This document shows positions 44,828 to 50,474 of a DNA stretch of 53,635 nt, piece after piece. A program made the translations under genes and the position numbers. Source of the DNA: Thermomicrobiales bacterium. GTDB taxonomy: Bacteria; Chloroflexota; Chloroflexia; Thermomicrobiales; UBA6265. Location: contig JAGQGU010000011.1 of NCBI GenBank assembly GCA_020432165.1, forward strand, positions 1 to 53,635, given 5' to 3'. The stretch's first letter is position 1. Every line of letters begins with the position of its first letter. The notes beneath the pieces were generated by a model, which did not search any database, was not told the origin of the DNA, and saw only the letters and a program-made list of their open reading frames with translations.

Positions 44828-44832
44828 GAGGG

Positions 44833-44906
<74 letters not shown>

Positions 44907-44999: not shown

Positions 45000-45029
45000 T
45001 TGACTTCGAGCGCTCGAAGTTTCTACGCT
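45000..45029 (+). promoter_or_regulatory. MerR-type promoter/operator of operon A
   Basis: TTGACT (45000-45005), an 18-base spacer and TACGCT (45024-45029). A perfect 18-bp palindrome, ACTTCGAGCGCTCGAAGT, spans 45003-45020 inside the long spacer. That layout (dyad between -35 and -10, spacer longer than 17) is the classic one for MerR activators, which bend the DNA to align the elements. The same architecture recurs before the aldo/keto reductase operon at 50445-50474. Confidence 0.85.
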
Positions 45030-45071
45030 CAACACATGATGTCAGCCCTTGTTCAAAAGAGGAGGATGGAT

Positions 45072-45521
45072 TTGGCGGATTATCCAATCCGAGAGGCTGC
45101 TCGTCTCGCTGGTCTTGCCGCAACAGCTATTCGCTATTACGAATCGATCGGTTTGCTGGATCCCCCGAAGCGCGACGCCAGTAGCGGTCACCGCGTGTAC
45201 TCCGACGCCGATCTGATGACGCTCGAAGCAGTGGCTTGCCTTCATGCGACCGGGCTCTCGATTCCTGATATGCGGAACTATCTGCAGAACAGTCGGCGTG
45301 GGATTGATGGAGCAGCATTGCAGATCGAACTGTTGAATGCTCAGGCCGAGCAGCTTGAGCGCGAGAGCGAGTATCTGGAACTAAGGCGCAGATATGTCGA
45401 TCTGAAAACCCGATTCTGGCAAGCAACGCTTGCCGGCGACGATTCCCTGGCCACGCGGTTGGCTGGAGAGGCATCAGCGATGGCAACTCGATTGTCTGAA
45501 GGTACGAGGAGATTTAAGTGA
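45072..45521 (+). CDS. MerR family regulator, AdhR/NmlR type (MerR1)
   Basis: This 149-residue MerR protein has an N-terminal winged helix (IREAARLAGLAATAIRYYE, then HRVYSDADLMTLEAVACLHATG) and a long C-terminal dimerisation coiled coil (about 80-125). Cys56 aligns with Cys52 of B. subtilis AdhR, the aldehyde/thiol-sensing residue; no other conserved metal cysteines are present. AGGAGG at 45060-45065 fixes the start at TTG 45072 (6-base spacing), which also aligns with MerR2. ATG codons at 45066 and 45036 are possible alternatives. It overlaps the adh gene by 4 bases and sits directly under the palindromic promoter. Confidence 0.9.
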   Translation: MADYPIREAARLAGLAATAIRYYESIGLLDPPKRDASSGHRVYSDADLMTLEAVACLHATGLSIPDMRNYLQNSRRGIDGAALQIELLNAQAEQLERESEYLELRRRYVDLKTRFWQATLAGDDSLATRLAGEASAMATRLSEGTRRFK

Positions 45522-46561
45522 AGGCAGCAATCTTTCGTGGTCCCGGAAGTATCGTCGTGGAAGAGCGACCTATCCCCACTATTCGGAATAATGGCGATGC
45601 GGTGGTGCGTATTGTTCGCTCCTGCGTCTGTGGCTCGGATCTCTGGTTTTACCGTGGCATCTCCGATCTGCCCCACGGGGGAGTTGGGCACGAGTTCATT
45701 GGTGTTGTGCATGAGACTGGCGCGGATGTGCACCACATCAAGCCAGGCGATTTTGTGATTGCACCATTCGCTTATAGCGACGGTACCTGTCCGAACTGCC
45801 AGGCAGGCTTTCAGACCGCCTGTGTGAGTGTTGGCTTCTTTGGTCAGGGTGGAGAGGACGATGGTGGTCAGGCGGAGTATGTGCGCGTACCAATGGCCGA
45901 TGGAACACTCTATCCGATCCCACGCGGAGACTATGCAGATGATGTGTTGGCCTCGTTGCTGACCCTCTCCGATGTCATGGGTACTGGCTATCACGCCGCC
46001 GTCAGTGCTCAGGTGAAAGCAGGGGATACGGTTGCTGTTGTTGGTGACGGAGCCGTGGGACTCTGCGGAGTGCTTTCCGCGAAAATGCTTGGTGCGACGC
46101 GCATTATCGCCATGAGTCGGCATGCTGACCGCCAGGCGCTTGCCCGCGAATTTGGGGCTACCGACATTGTTGAAGAACGCGGTGCCGATGCATTGGCTCG
46201 CATTATGGAACTCACAGATGGTGTTGGGGTCGATGCTGTTTTGGAGTGTGTCGGCACCCACGAATCCAATGAGACCTCCTTCGCCGTGGCACGGGCGGGG
46301 GCCATCGTCGGACGTGTCGGTGTCCCGCATGGGGTGGAGATTCCGGTAGAAGAGACCTTCTTTCGCAATGTGGGTATGCGCGGTGGGCCAGCGCCGGTGC
46401 GGGCATATATGGATACATTGTTACCCGAGGTGCTCTCAGGGCGAATCAATCCTGGCAAGGTGTTCGATCTCGAAATCGATCTGGACAATATCGCCGAAGG
46501 CTACGCTGCTATGGACGAACGCCGCGCCATTAAGGCATTGATCAAGGTGAGCGACCTGTGA
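45518..46561 (+). CDS. Zinc-dependent alcohol dehydrogenase
   Basis: This 347-residue medium-chain dehydrogenase has a catalytic zinc site with Cys in CVCGSD and GHEF (His-Glu), a structural-zinc loop with only three cysteines visible (CPNC and a later Cys, a variant seen in some bacterial ADHs), and an NAD(P) Rossmann fold with VVGDGAVGLCGVLSAKMLG. The start is GTG at 45518, overlapping merR1. Substrates are likely small alcohols or aldehydes, by analogy with AdhA controlled by AdhR. A hairpin (46573-46582 with 46593-46600, one bulge) lies before the next gene. Confidence 0.92.
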   Translation: MKAAIFRGPGSIVVEERPIPTIRNNGDAVVRIVRSCVCGSDLWFYRGISDLPHGGVGHEFIGVVHETGADVHHIKPGDFVIAPFAYSDGTCPNCQAGFQTACVSVGFFGQGGEDDGGQAEYVRVPMADGTLYPIPRGDYADDVLASLLTLSDVMGTGYHAAVSAQVKAGDTVAVVGDGAVGLCGVLSAKMLGATRIIAMSRHADRQALAREFGATDIVEERGADALARIMELTDGVGVDAVLECVGTHESNETSFAVARAGAIVGRVGVPHGVEIPVEETFFRNVGMRGGPAPVRAYMDTLLPEVLSGRINPGKVFDLEIDLDNIAEGYAAMDERRAIKALIKVSDL

Positions 46562-46613
46562 GTGATGTATGTATGAACACGGTTGCACAGTGCCGTTCAT
46601 GTGAAAGGGCTCT

Positions 46614-47150
46614 ATGGATACCAACCGACGAAGCATTCTTACCGCTATGGTTGGGGGAGTGATCTTCGCTCTCCTGGGAGGTAATCAGATGGCCAGGCTG
46701 CGGTTCGGGAAGATTCAGGATGATTCTGCGACTCCAGCGGCAAGCCCTGCGGCAACACCGGCTGCCCATACGGGCATTACGATTACGTTCGGGGATGTTG
46801 TTGTTCAGGGTGAGCTGTGGGACAACCCCACAGCTCGAGACCTGGTCTCTCTCCTGCCACTCGAACTGGTCTTCAGCGACTACAACTCTGTAGAGAAAAC
46901 TGCCAGCCTTCCTCGCGCGTTGACGATGAATGGCGTCCCTGCAGGTGCCGATCCCGAACCGTCCGATATTGGCTATTACGCACCGGGCAATGTGCTGGTG
47001 CTGTACTACGGTGATGTCGGCTACTGGAATGGAATCGTGCGACTCGGCAGAATGCTCGACAATGGAGAGGGAATCGTTGCGCAAACGAGCGATTTCACCG
47101 CTCGTATTGAGATTGCGACCGATGAAGTGAAAAGCGAGGCGACGCCATGA
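46614..47150 (+). CDS. Exported cyclophilin-like fold protein
   Basis: The 178-residue protein begins MDTNRRSILTAMVGGVIFAL, a signal peptide with twin Arg (Tat-like), then a low-complexity S/A/T/P linker (about 36-52). The C-terminal domain matches the cyclophilin-like (TM1367-type) family: GELWDNPTARDLVSLLPLEL, DYNSVEKTASLPRALTMNG, DIGYYAPGNVLVLYYGD and GIVRLGRM. This fold lacks the proline isomerase active site and has no known reaction. AAAGGG precedes the ATG. It overlaps the cupin gene by 4 bases. Confidence 0.85.
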   Translation: MDTNRRSILTAMVGGVIFALLGGNQMARLRFGKIQDDSATPAASPAATPAAHTGITITFGDVVVQGELWDNPTARDLVSLLPLELVFSDYNSVEKTASLPRALTMNGVPAGADPEPSDIGYYAPGNVLVLYYGDVGYWNGIVRLGRMLDNGEGIVAQTSDFTARIEIATDEVKSEATP

Positions 47151-47527
47151 AGCGATATACCTATCCAACTAACCTGGGACCGTCCGACTGGTTTACCGGT
47201 GCTGTCTATGTCGACACCATTCGTGTGCCTGATAGTAACACGGCTATTGGTGCTTCTCATGTGCATTTCACCCCGGGTGCCCGCACGCATTGGCATACCC
47301 ATCCCAAAGGGCAGACGCTCTATGTTACGGAGGGTGTTGGCTACGTATGCCGACGCGGAAGTGCACCCGAGGAGATTCGGGCCGGAGATATCATCTATTT
47401 TGAACCGAATGAGGAACATTGGCACGGCGCCACCTCTGATCGATTCATGGCGCACATCGCCATGCAGGAGGCAGATGCCGATGGCAAGGTCGTGATCTGG
47501 CTGGAGCCAGCAGAATTGGAGCAGTAG
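47147..47527 (+). CDS. Cupin domain protein
   Basis: This 126-residue single-domain cupin has HVHFTPGARTHWHTHPKGQTLYV (motif 1 with its histidines) and FEPNEEHWHGATSDRFMAHIAMQE (motif 2), so a metal site is likely. Related cupins are often fused or adjacent to carboxymuconolactone decarboxylase and sometimes act as lyases or oxygenases. It overlaps the preceding gene by four bases and the next by one (TAGTG). A degraded relative lies in operon B at 48601-48731. Confidence 0.9.
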   Translation: MKRYTYPTNLGPSDWFTGAVYVDTIRVPDSNTAIGASHVHFTPGARTHWHTHPKGQTLYVTEGVGYVCRRGSAPEEIRAGDIIYFEPNEEHWHGATSDRFMAHIAMQEADADGKVVIWLEPAELEQ

Positions 47528-47901
47528 TGTCCGCATCAGCATCGTGGTTGGCACCAATTGCCGACGAATCGTTCATGTATCTCACCACCACTGGCCGCGT
47601 AAGTGGCACCCCGCATCGCATCGAGATCTGGTTCGGTGTGGATCAGAATCGCATCTTGTTGATGGCTGGTGGCAGGGACAAATCAGACTGGGTGAAGAAC
47701 CTGATAGCTGATCCGCATGTGACTGTGGAAGTGGGGAATCAGACGCGCTCGGGTATGGCGTACGTTGTGTCACCAGATTCCGAAGATGATGCCCGCGCTC
47801 GCGAGCTCCTTGTCAGCAAATACGGCAAGGATCGCGATCTCGACGATTGGCGGGCTCGCTCGTTACCGGTTGTCATCACTTTCCCGGGCAACGATGTGTG
47901 A
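47527..47901 (+). CDS. Nitroreductase/quinone reductase, F420-type (DDN-like)
   Basis: This 124-residue protein begins with FMYLTTTGRVSGTPHRIEIWF and has GRDKSDWVKNLIADPHVTVEV, the marks of the split-barrel family that includes the deazaflavin F420-dependent DDN and pyridoxamine oxidase-like proteins. The family can use F420 or FMN; the cofactor here cannot be told. It starts with GTG in a TAGTG overlap with the cupin gene. A quinone- or aldehyde-reducing role would fit the operon. Confidence 0.85.
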   Translation: MSASASWLAPIADESFMYLTTTGRVSGTPHRIEIWFGVDQNRILLMAGGRDKSDWVKNLIADPHVTVEVGNQTRSGMAYVVSPDSEDDARARELLVSKYGKDRDLDDWRARSLPVVITFPGNDV

Positions 47902-47919
47902 GATGGCAAGGAGTCAGCA

Positions 47920-48294
47920 ATGAGTAATTGGACACCCGAGGAGCTTGCTGTGGTCGATCGCACCGATGAACTGCATGTTGCGGTAGAGCGGAGCGATGGT
48001 ACGCTGCGGGATTCCAGGATCGTTTGGGTTGTGCGTGTTGGTGATGACCTCTAGATCCGTTCAGCGCACGGCCTGGATGGTGCCTGGTATCGGGCGGCGG
48101 TGAAAACGCGCCTGGGACGTGTTACGGTCGCCGGCATTGAGCGCGATGTTCATCTGGAAGATGCTGCCGATCAGCTGAACCAGGAGATTGATGACGCGTT
48201 CTGGGCGAAGTACGGGCGGTATCCCGCTCAATACGTCGAGCCAGTGACCAACGAAGCGTCTCACTCCACAACGATCAGGCTGGTACCCAGATAG
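47920..48294 (+). pseudogene. DUF2255 gene interrupted by an amber codon
   Basis: The frame starts at ATG 47920, with AAGGAG before it, and reads DUF2255-like sequence on both sides of one TAG at 48052-48054. The 44 residues before the stop (ending VVRVGDDL) and 80 residues after it (IRSAHGLDGAWYRAAVKTR, then AQYVEPVTNE and IRLVPR) match the family with nothing missing. A Tyr codon usually stands at the stop position, so TAC to TAG would explain it. TAG is a normal stop in this genome (ftsK, glmU, prs and others end in TAG), so recoding is unlikely. A sequencing error is possible. Confidence 0.85.
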
Positions 48295-48304
48295 ATTCGG
48301 TCAG

Positions 48305-48595
48305 CTAGTCATTGAGGGGAGGATGATCGGTATGGATGGCCATTGACCGCCATACCGATTCGCCTTGGCGTTTGATGATGTGCCAACGATGCGCAGCCAC
48401 CGTGTTTCCCTTTGATGTTGTGTATTCCGGGACAGTAATCTCGTACTCATTGTCTTTCGCCAGGCTCACGCCCCCGATCACTGTCACGCCATCGGCAAAC
48501 TCGATGATGCAATCGGTAGACGATTCGCCGCCATCGTCCACGCCAAGTTGACCACCATGGAATGCATGGCTATGTGGAAAACTGAAACGGAGCAT
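48305..48595 (-). CDS. Conserved-looking protein of unknown function
   Basis: This 96-residue protein shows FADGVTVIGGVSLAKDNEYEI and TVAAHRWHIIKRQGESVWRSM, beta-rich with no recognised domain, signal or membrane segment. ATG 48595 is preferred because a GAAAGGG site lies upstream; a TTG at 48604 overlaps the stop of the cupin relic. It is the last frame of operon B. I cannot assign a function. Confidence 0.5.
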   Translation of the reverse strand: MLRFSFPHSHAFHGGQLGVDDGGESSTDCIIEFADGVTVIGGVSLAKDNEYEITVPEYTTSKGNTVAAHRWHIIKRQGESVWRSMAIHTDHPPLND

Positions 48596-48600
48596 CGTGG

Positions 48601-48731
48601 TCAAGCCCTTTCGGCATACTCGTCATCGGTCACGTGTTCACCCCAGTTTACGAGATGTCTCTGGTCATTAGGCTCTGCAATCGCCATATGGGCCATGAAG
48701 CGGCGCCCTGCCAATGCTCCTCACCGGGGCT
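48601..48731 (-). pseudogene. C-terminal remnant of a cupin gene
   Basis: Directly after, and in part overlapping, the end of the decarboxylase gene, the minus strand reads SPGEEHWQGA in one frame (cupin motif 2, compare PNEEHWHGA of the intact cupin). After a frame change near 48697 it reads RRFMAHMAIAEPNDQRHLVN, then WGEHVTDDEYAERA and stop. The intact cupin has RFMAHIAMQE at the same place. About the first two thirds of the gene and a few bases inside it are missing. It is probably the remains of a cupin that once followed, or was fused to, the decarboxylase. Confidence 0.7.
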
Positions 48732-49059
48732 CTGCCTCCTCGCGCTCTTCAAGGACAGTCCGCAATGTGGTCACCGCATTGATGGCGCACGGCCAGCCAG
48801 CATAGAACGCCAACTGCGTAATCACTTCGACCAGCTCCTCCTGGGTGACGCCGTTGTCGAGTGCTCGTCCCATGTGAGACTTCAGTTGACTGCTGCGATC
48901 AAGAGAGAGCAGGGCCGCTACGGTGATCAGACTGCGATCTCGTTGCGAAAGTCCTGGTCGCGCATAGACATCGCCAAACAGAACATCGTCGGTAAGCTCT
49001 GCCAGTTTCGGTGCAATATCGCCCATAAGTTGCTGGGCGCGGCTTGGTTCCTGGGTCAT
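48721..49059 (-). CDS. Carboxymuconolactone decarboxylase (AhpD-like fold) protein
   Basis: This 112-residue helical protein has RPGLSQRDRSLITVAALLSLDRSSQL, HMGRALDNGVTQEELVEVITQLAFYAGWPCAINAV, the CMD family signature. The Cys in GWPCAINA is the only Cys and is not the usual CxxC, so a thiol peroxidase role like AhpD is unlikely. In B. subtilis the AdhR regulon also contains a CMD protein (YraC). It lies 23 bases downstream of merR2. The C-terminal residues after VLEEREEAEPR run into the cupin relic. Confidence 0.9.
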   Translation of the reverse strand: MTQEPSRAQQLMGDIAPKLAELTDDVLFGDVYARPGLSQRDRSLITVAALLSLDRSSQLKSHMGRALDNGVTQEELVEVITQLAFYAGWPCAINAVTTLRTVLEEREEAEPR

Positions 49060-49082
49060 CTTGTTTCCTCTAAAGCATGCCG

Positions 49083-49541
49083 TTAAGCCTCGGTTCGTGA
49101 GAGAGGTCTGGGCAGATTCATTTCGTCGGCGATGGCATTTGTCGTGGCACCACAGGCAGCGATGGCGACAGGATCACCCTGTTCGACCGCGTGCCAGTAG
49201 GCGATCTTCGCCTCCACGTACCTGATGCGGGCTGTGATCTGCTCGATCTCATGCGCCAGATGATCGCGTTGGGTCGTCAGCAGCTCGGCCTGCTCGCGCG
49301 CTTTGTCAGCACCCATGCGGCGGTTGCTCAGATAGGAGCGCATATCTGCAATCGACATCCCCGTCGCGCTCAGGCAGGCGATCATCGTCAGGTGATCGAC
49401 ATCATCCTGGCTATAGACGCGTTGCTTGCTGCTGGTATCGCGATTGATCCGCTCTATCAGACCAATGCGTTCGTAATAGCGCAGCGTGCTATCCGGTAGT
49501 CCGCATATCTGCGCGGTTTCGCTGATGGTGTATGTCTTCAT
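49083..49541 (-). CDS. MerR family regulator, AdhR/NmlR type (MerR2)
   Basis: This 152-residue protein is a paralogue of MerR1 with the same layout. The DNA-binding part is TISETAQICGLPDSTLRYYERIGLI and QRVYSQDDVDHLTMIACLSATGMSIADM, followed by a coiled coil (about 80-120). Cys56 again aligns with AdhR Cys52; the additional Cys13 is not in MerR1. The gene lies 4 bases after the aldo/keto reductase and before the decarboxylase, so it is autoregulated with them from the palindromic promoter at 50445-50474. Confidence 0.9.
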   Translation of the reverse strand: MKTYTISETAQICGLPDSTLRYYERIGLIERINRDTSSKQRVYSQDDVDHLTMIACLSATGMSIADMRSYLSNRRMGADKAREQAELLTTQRDHLAHEIEQITARIRYVEAKIAYWHAVEQGDPVAIAACGATTNAIADEMNLPRPLSRTEA

Positions 49542-49545
49542 ACGA

Positions 49546-50403
49546 TTAGTCCGGAAGCACGCGGCTGAAGAGCATCTTCACAAAGGCCGGATCCTCGTGA
49601 TCGACAAAGAGCTTCTTCTCCTCATCGAGTTCAGCAATCCGCTGCATATCGCTATCGTCCAGCTCGAAATCGAAGATGGCGAAGTTTTCGGCGATACGGT
49701 CTCTCCGCACGGATTTAGGAATGGAAACGACCTCTCGCTGAAGATCCCAGCGCAGCACGACCTGTCCAACACTCTTTCCGTGCTTGTTGGCAATTGCCAC
49801 CAGCGTTTCGTTGCTGAAGAGTCCGGACCTTCCTTCGGCGAAGGGTGCCCATCCTTCGTGAACTACACCTTCGGCTTGCATCAGTTCGTGCGCCGCCACC
49901 TGCTGATGGAACGGATGCGTCTCGATCTGGTTCACCATGGGCTTGATGCGGTTATTCAGCATGAGATCCGTCAGACGGGCAGGGGAGAAGTTGGAAACGC
50001 CGATCGCTTTGACCTTGCCTTCCTCATAGAGATCTTCCAGCGCGCGCCAGGCACCATAGATATCTCCATATGGCTGGTGGATGAGATAGAGATCAAGATA
50101 CTCAAGTCCGAGCTTGTCGAGTGATCGTTGATAGGCGGTTATCGTGCCGTCGTACGATGCATCCGCCACCCAGAGTTTACTGGTAACGAAGAGATCTTCT
50201 CTGGCAATACCAACCCGGGCGATCCCTCGACCAACCGCCCGCTCGTTCATATAGGAAGTGGCGGTATCGATCAGGCGATAGCCGATGTCGATGGCATCCA
50301 CCACGCTCTGCTCGGCTTCCTCATCCGTCATCTGAAACACACCGAAGCCGAGTAGTGGCATCGCTATGCCGTTGTGTAGCTGAATCGTTGGTACGGTACC
50401 CAT
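49546..50403 (-). CDS. Aldo/keto reductase
   Basis: This 285-residue (beta/alpha)8 NADPH reductase has the tetrad: Asp and Tyr in LIDTATSYMNERAVG, Lys in FVTSKLWV and His in LYLIHQPYG. The NADPH-binding IPKSVRRDRIAEN lies near the C-terminus. Members of this group reduce methylglyoxal, 2,5-diketogluconate and other carbonyls. The ATG at 50403 has GGGAG upstream; longer in-frame starts run through the promoter and are not credible. It is the first gene of operon B. Confidence 0.95.
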   Translation of the reverse strand: MGTVPTIQLHNGIAMPLLGFGVFQMTDEEAEQSVVDAIDIGYRLIDTATSYMNERAVGRGIARVGIAREDLFVTSKLWVADASYDGTITAYQRSLDKLGLEYLDLYLIHQPYGDIYGAWRALEDLYEEGKVKAIGVSNFSPARLTDLMLNNRIKPMVNQIETHPFHQQVAAHELMQAEGVVHEGWAPFAEGRSGLFSNETLVAIANKHGKSVGQVVLRWDLQREVVSIPKSVRRDRIAENFAIFDFELDDSDMQRIAELDEEKKLFVDHEDPAFVKMLFSRVLPD

Positions 50404-50444
50404 AATTTGCGCTCCCTGCGTCCAGGCTCGATTGACCTCTTTCG

Positions 50445-50474
50445 AGCCTACGAACTTGAAGCGCTTCAAGTCAA
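50445..50474 (-). promoter_or_regulatory. MerR-type promoter/operator of operon B
   Basis: On the minus strand TTGACT (50469-50474), an 18-base spacer and TAGGCT (50445-50450). A perfect 18-bp palindrome, ACTTGAAGCGCTTCAAGT, spans 50454-50471. It shares the same -35, spacer length, palindrome core AGCGCT, outer ACTT/AAGT arms and flanking CCATTG with the merR1 promoter. It lies 42 bases before the aldo/keto reductase start, directly behind the S9 peptidase gene. Confidence 0.85.

Follow-up and report, generated by a model that had tools for sequence, protein, structure and literature searches.

The closest described relatives of the system presented here are the AdhR (YraB) regulon of B. subtilis (adhA-yraA, yraC), in which a MerR protein with a cysteine is joined to an alcohol dehydrogenase (ADH) and to YraC, a carboxymuconolactone decarboxylase (CMD) and cupin protein, and the NmlR-adhC-estD system of H. 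influenzae and Neisseria, in which a short MerR protein without a sensor domain also keeps the cysteine. The AdhR C52A and NmlR C54A mutants lost the response to formaldehyde (PMC4776306). In this study, we analysed a stretch of 53,635 nucleotides of a Thermomicrobiales bacterium (contig JAGQGU010000011.1; the window), whose host genome is 3.2 Mb long and 98% complete. Open reading frame (ORF) and family searches revealed two convergent operons in 45000-50474. Operon A, on the forward strand, consists of merR1, a zinc ADH, a cyclophilin-like gene (PF18050), a cupin, a Ddn-type F420H2 reductase and a DUF2255 gene with an in-frame TAG; operon B, on the reverse strand, consists of an aldo/keto reductase (AKR), merR2, a CMD gene, a cupin remnant and a 99-amino-acid ORF. 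All of the genes named in the first-pass annotation were therefore found, two of them broken (DUF2255 by the stop codon and the second cupin as a frameshifted tail). Based on their sequences, we consider it probable that the two operons form one regulon with two promoters, in which thiol-sensing MerR proteins respond to electrophile stress (aldehydes and/or quinones). Compared to the B. subtilis regulon, the window has two regulators and additionally the AKR, the F420 reductase, DUF2255 and the exported cyclophilin-like protein; compared to NmlR-adhC-estD, it lacks both a class III ADH and an S-formylglutathione hydrolase. The overlaps of 1-4 bases in operon A (merR1/ADH, cyclophilin/cupin and cupin/F420 gene) and the spacing of 4 bases between the AKR and merR2 in operon B support the predicted co-transcription of the genes within each operon.

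Both operons share an operator, the perfect palindrome TTGACTTNNAGCGCTNNAAGTT that overlaps TTGACT, as the first-pass annotation had proposed. Two sites were observed in the window compared to 0.03 expected by chance, with no shuffle having two, and a genome-wide search that allowed one mismatch located the palindrome solely at the two operon promoters. With 0-2 mismatches, it was also located directly upstream of the homologous merR genes of Nocardioides, Arthrobacter, Pedococcus, Mycobacterium, Microbacterium, Rhodococcus and an actinomycete metagenome-assembled genome (MAG), while in the family member G206 it is followed by an esterase-like gene and then by a merR2-like gene, which is the layout of operon B. 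The closest named match of merR1 was in a Thermomicrobiales MAG. MerR1 (149 amino acids) and MerR2 (152 amino acids) are 44% identical, the C-terminal sensor family was absent from the family search of both, and their best solved relatives were the H. influenzae NmlR chains (HI_0186), with the sensor cysteine aligned. The cysteine equivalent to NmlR Cys54 and AdhR Cys52 was conserved in both proteins in the alignments and in the rows of the tree, which agrees with the earlier assignment of the pair to the AdhR type. In the 44-row tree, both fell into one clade (100/98) that had the cysteine in all 14 of its rows and whose deep link to the AdhR group of the Firmicutes was weak. MerR1 was placed with actinobacterial proteins and MerR2 branched outside of them; the two are not sister proteins, and a recent merR1/merR2 duplication was ruled out. 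The term "paralogous", which had been applied to them, thus holds in the wide sense of homologues and not in that of a recent duplicate pair or of closest relatives. Such a placement would also be expected of two independent operons that lie side by side by chance and differ in regulator and signal, and the absence of the merR2-CMD block in a congener (genome G204, 91% complete) points in the same direction. We find this quite unlikely because the operator design is identical at both promoters and because the AKR retains the operator in the congener genome, where merR1 alone was found.

The congener locus has the order operator-merR1-ADH-MFS-cyclophilin-F420-tandem cyclophilin-cupin-DUF2255 (contig L050, which is the same contig as G204:C47), and a truncated AKR lies convergent to this set, with neither merR2 nor CMD in between. 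Three operators are present in this genome, one before merR1 and one before each of two AKR copies, and a search of it with MerR2 returned MerR1 as the one close relative and no merR2. Because the AKRs of the congener carry the operator and no merR2 was found, MerR1 must serve the AKR there, unless merR2 lies in the missing 9% of the genome. Among the arguments for cross-regulation, this pattern appears to be the strongest, and it would support one regulon with two promoters. The two operator-bearing AKR copies (L138 and L156) are located on two contigs, beside similar stretches that encode large secreted repeat proteins, and these regions represent either a duplication or an assembly split.

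In the mechanism that we propose, each MerR dimer would sit on the palindrome between the -35 and -10 elements and keep the promoter off, and modification of the cysteine beside the DNA-binding domain would cause the dimer to bend the DNA and thereby turn the promoter on. Since the operator is common to both operons, either MerR could probably act on both promoters, and each operon would feed back via its own merR. Carbonyls would be reduced by the ADH and AKR and quinones by the F420H2-dependent Ddn-type reductase, a further step would be handled by the CMD and the metal cupin, and the exported cyclophilin-like protein would work in the cell envelope. The genes, the operator and its restriction to these two places, the cysteine and the signal-like N-termini are seen in the sequence itself, and in this scheme we infer the inducer, the cross-regulation, the substrates of the enzymes and the role of the cyclophilin-like protein. 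The earlier expectation that the enzymes fit carbonyl or quinone electrophiles was upheld by the ADH, the AKR and the Ddn-type reductase, together with an F420 ligase in the genome. The reductase scored 58.5 bits against PF04075 (cut-off 22) and 55.4 bits against TIGR00026 (cut-off 46.35), and the host genome encodes CofE, the F420 ligase (239 bits); a CofD search is no guide to F420 capacity, as this family also matches genomes without F420, such as that of E. coli. These scores place the protein in the Ddn/F420H2 quinone reductase family, in a genome that bears a predicted F420 ligase. Quinones are substrates of Ddn-type enzymes, and in M. tuberculosis F420 gives protection from oxidative stress (PMC3567243). 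The operon A cupin scored 161 bits against NF049940 (cut-off 140), which assigns it to the (R)-mandelonitrile lyase cupins, with a putative lyase activity. In an alignment to 4bif, it kept HxH...Q...H, residues which we take to be metal ligands.

The presence of such a cupin and of a CMD, both of which have namesakes in catabolism, could also indicate a substrate-induced catabolic or xenobiotic-conversion module, whose enzymes degrade an aromatic, enone or cyanohydrin-like compound sensed by the MerRs. Related kits bear MFS pumps, alpha/beta hydrolases, short-chain dehydrogenases (SDRs) and sometimes 4-oxalocrotonate tautomerase. This explanation is unlikely: the MerRs, of about 150 amino acids, have no ligand-binding domain and keep the NmlR cysteine, and ring-cleavage and CoA genes are absent from both operons. 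Another candidate is a response to reactive chlorine or to oxidants in general, as in P. aeruginosa RclR-RclX. RclX belongs to the AhpD/CMD family and protects against HOCl and HOSCN (PMC7950407), and oxidants are often the signal for thiol regulators. We judge such a response to be very unlikely, given that the CMD of the window contains one cysteine and lacks a CXXC, for which reason it was also rejected as an AhpD-like peroxidase, and that most of the partner genes encode carbonyl or quinone reductases.

Several observations weigh against an electrophile-responsive MerR regulon. MerR proteins work by bending DNA with a long spacer, which is usually 19-20 bases (PMC9909328), while the promoter spacer was read here as 18 bases. 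Both regulators were far from the cut-off of the NmlR equivalog NF041849 (59.8 and 72.1 bits compared to 175), which argues that they are NmlR-like and not NmlR orthologues. The operon B CMD is without the CXXC of its peroxidase relatives, and the ADH belongs to a different subfamily than AdhA (28% identity over part of the protein). The missing merR2 of the congener is uncertain since that genome is 91% complete. Finally, the two broken genes may mean that selection on the system is weak. The part of DUF2255 past the TAG still scores 52 bits and the gene is intact in the congener, so that the break appears to be either a recent event or an assembly error. Two reading frames of the cupin remnant align with intact cupins, first with PGEEHWQGAA and then with RFMAHMAI...WGEHVTDDEY, and the stop codon of the CMD gene falls within the cupin-derived sequence. 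Both features would be expected after a deletion and a frameshift in a CMD that was paired or fused with a cupin. A CMD-cupin fusion is known from B. spizizenii, whose AdhR locus, with its genes named after their B. subtilis counterparts (PMC11577753), encodes AdhR, AdhA, a DJ-1 protein and the 244-amino-acid YraC, in which a CMD is fused to the cupin family of the window. In the window, the counterparts of the cupin half of YraC are the remnant behind the CMD and the intact cupin of operon A. A DJ-1 gene (YraA) was not found at the window locus, and the rest of the genome was not searched for DJ-1. The comparison with the AdhR regulon in the first-pass annotation was therefore closer than claimed with regard to YraC, and the cupin cannot be counted as an enlargement of that regulon. 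Part of the two-operon system appears to be decaying, and the exported cyclophilin-like protein is its most unusual steady member.

Features of the two operons and the adjoining tRNA gene in the window
Feature	Position	Strand	Evidence or remark
tRNA-Val(CAC)	44831..44906	-	adjoins operon A, as in the congener
Operator of operon A, TTGACTTCGAGCGCTCGAAGTT	45000..45021	+	-35 TTGACT, -10 TACGCT 18 bases on; identical in congener G204
merR1, NmlR/AdhR-like MerR with sensor-position cysteine	45072..45521	+	family searches, alignment, tree; TTG start chosen by comparison with homologous start in congener L050
Zinc-type alcohol dehydrogenase (MDR)	45518..46561	+	88% identical in congener
Exported cyclophilin-like protein (PF18050, 111 bits), Tat-like N-terminus NRRSILT	46614..47150	+	profile search
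Cupin, (R)-mandelonitrile lyase family (NF049940)	47147..47527	+	profile search
Ddn-type F420H2-dependent quinone/nitro reductase (PF04075)	47527..47901	+	profile searches
DUF2255 gene, in-frame TAG at 48052-48054	47920..48294	+	intact in congener
99-amino-acid ORF, unknown family	48305..48604	-	relatives elsewhere
C-terminal cupin remnant, same family as operon A cupin, two frames, directly behind CMD	48607..48728	-	comparison with intact cupins
CMD-family protein, one cysteine, no CXXC	48721..49059	-	45% identical to CMD half of YraC
merR2, NmlR/AdhR-like MerR, same cysteine as merR1	49083..49541	-	family searches, alignment, tree
Aldo/keto reductase, DkgA-like	49546..50403	-	family searches
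Operator of operon B, TTGACTTGAAGCGCTTCAAGTT	50453..50474	-	-10 TAGGCT 18 bases on

Analysis of the N-termini of the cyclophilin-like proteins by eye showed that all 12 that were inspected (the window and 11 plasmid loci) look exported, being Tat-like in the window, Microvirga, Rhizobium, Gemmobacter and Aminobacter, with a lipobox in Streptomyces, Priestia, Acinetobacter and Scytonema, and Sec-like in E. coli, Klebsiella and Enterobacter. The congener copy has a Tat-like SRRSFL motif, and the copy of another Chloroflexota genome, G092, has a lipobox-like N-terminus. Next to its single-domain gene, the congener also encodes a 302-amino-acid protein in which the cyclophilin-like domain occurs twice in tandem (L050:9841-10749). 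The membership of the window protein is in PF18050 (cyclophilin-like); a PDB sequence search with it returned no match, and its predicted structure was poor (mean pLDDT 49).

Of 79 related MerR genes, 27 had an AKR within 2.5 kb, 11 a CMD, seven a cupin and five an ADH, while the corresponding numbers at 2.5-6 kb were three, zero, zero and three. The cyclophilin-like gene was present within 2.5 kb of none of the 79 and at 2.5-6 kb from one (Pedococcus). At 14 annotated plasmid sites with PF18050, which were picked from match lists and are not a random sample, the regulator was of the LysR type in 10, AraC/HTH in two and MerR in none; an MFS pump adjoined in 11 and an ADH, cupin, CMD or AKR was annotated in eight. 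Plasmid-borne kits of this kind, such as those of E. coli p417H-90, Microvirga pR24_1 and Streptomyces anulatus, have the enzyme families of the window and the exported cyclophilin-like protein, but their regulators are LysR or AraC, and the F420 reductase and DUF2255 are absent among the annotated neighbours. On a Klebsiella plasmid (L165:5872-7187), an exported cyclophilin-like gene directly precedes an AKR and the ends of the two genes overlap; ABC transporter genes lie next to them, and a cyclophilin-like gene of this type matches 482 Klebsiella plasmid records. Among 201 sampled Chloroflexota genomes, two had a strong, near full-length PF18050 match and 36 others had weak, mostly partial ones. 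In the second strong genome (G092), the ADH, cyclophilin, F420 reductase, DUF2255 and cupin occur together with a weak CMD match upstream, and in G217, AraC, MFS, DUF2255, CMD, ADH and F420 reductase are grouped. The kits of G092, G217 and G250, whose ADHs are 53-54% identical to that of the window, combine CMD, F420 reductase, DUF2255, cupin or cyclophilin-like genes in varying ways; they differ in that no MerR was found at the loci and no palindrome within two mismatches, and the G217 regulator is of the AraC type. Elsewhere, an ORF that begins like an SDR and finishes as DUF2255 (L142:7076-7873) may be a fusion or a decayed SDR. The enzyme kit is thus common across several phyla, and its MerR control is the rare part. 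We tentatively suggest that the PF18050 protein could be the envelope part of a phylum-spanning electrophile-defence kit with carbonyl/quinone reductases, CMD, cupin and interchangeable regulators, which here is under an operator-sharing, thiol-sensing MerR pair.

With regard to the neighbouring genes, the relatives of the conserved 99-amino-acid ORF adjoin dinB/imuA-type translesion polymerase genes on Shinella and Agrobacterium plasmids. It was not retained as a member of the regulon and is probably a passenger. In the congener, a TraG/FtsK-like ATPase and a serine recombinase (L050:673-5816) end at the tRNA-Val(CAC) that adjoins operon A, which suggests an integrated element on the far side of the tRNA gene. 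Operon A was considered as part of an island inserted there; however, the recombinase and operon A flank the tRNA gene on opposite sides, with the recombinase at its 3' side, and membership of the operon in that element is therefore not shown. The S9 peptidase that adjoins the window locus had no match in the congener.

The gene grouping had been regarded as peculiar to this locus, but the cyclophilin/cupin/ADH/CMD/AKR set recurs in several phyla with LysR or AraC regulators, and the novelty of the set is weaker than was first held. The literature searched, which covered few subscription journals, yielded no account of the kit as a single system. What is new is the apparent capture of the kit by NmlR-type MerR proteins, the membership of the Ddn-type reductase and DUF2255, otherwise seen solely in kits of Chloroflexota, and the export of the cyclophilin-like protein, which all of the inspected N-termini predict. 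The system joins a well-studied type of regulator, NmlR/AdhR, to a common kit, of which at least the cyclophilin-like member is present on hundreds of plasmids of Klebsiella. It offers a way to test what the exported cyclophilin-like family does and why CMD and hydroxynitrile lyase (HNL)-type cupins occur together with aldehyde reductases.

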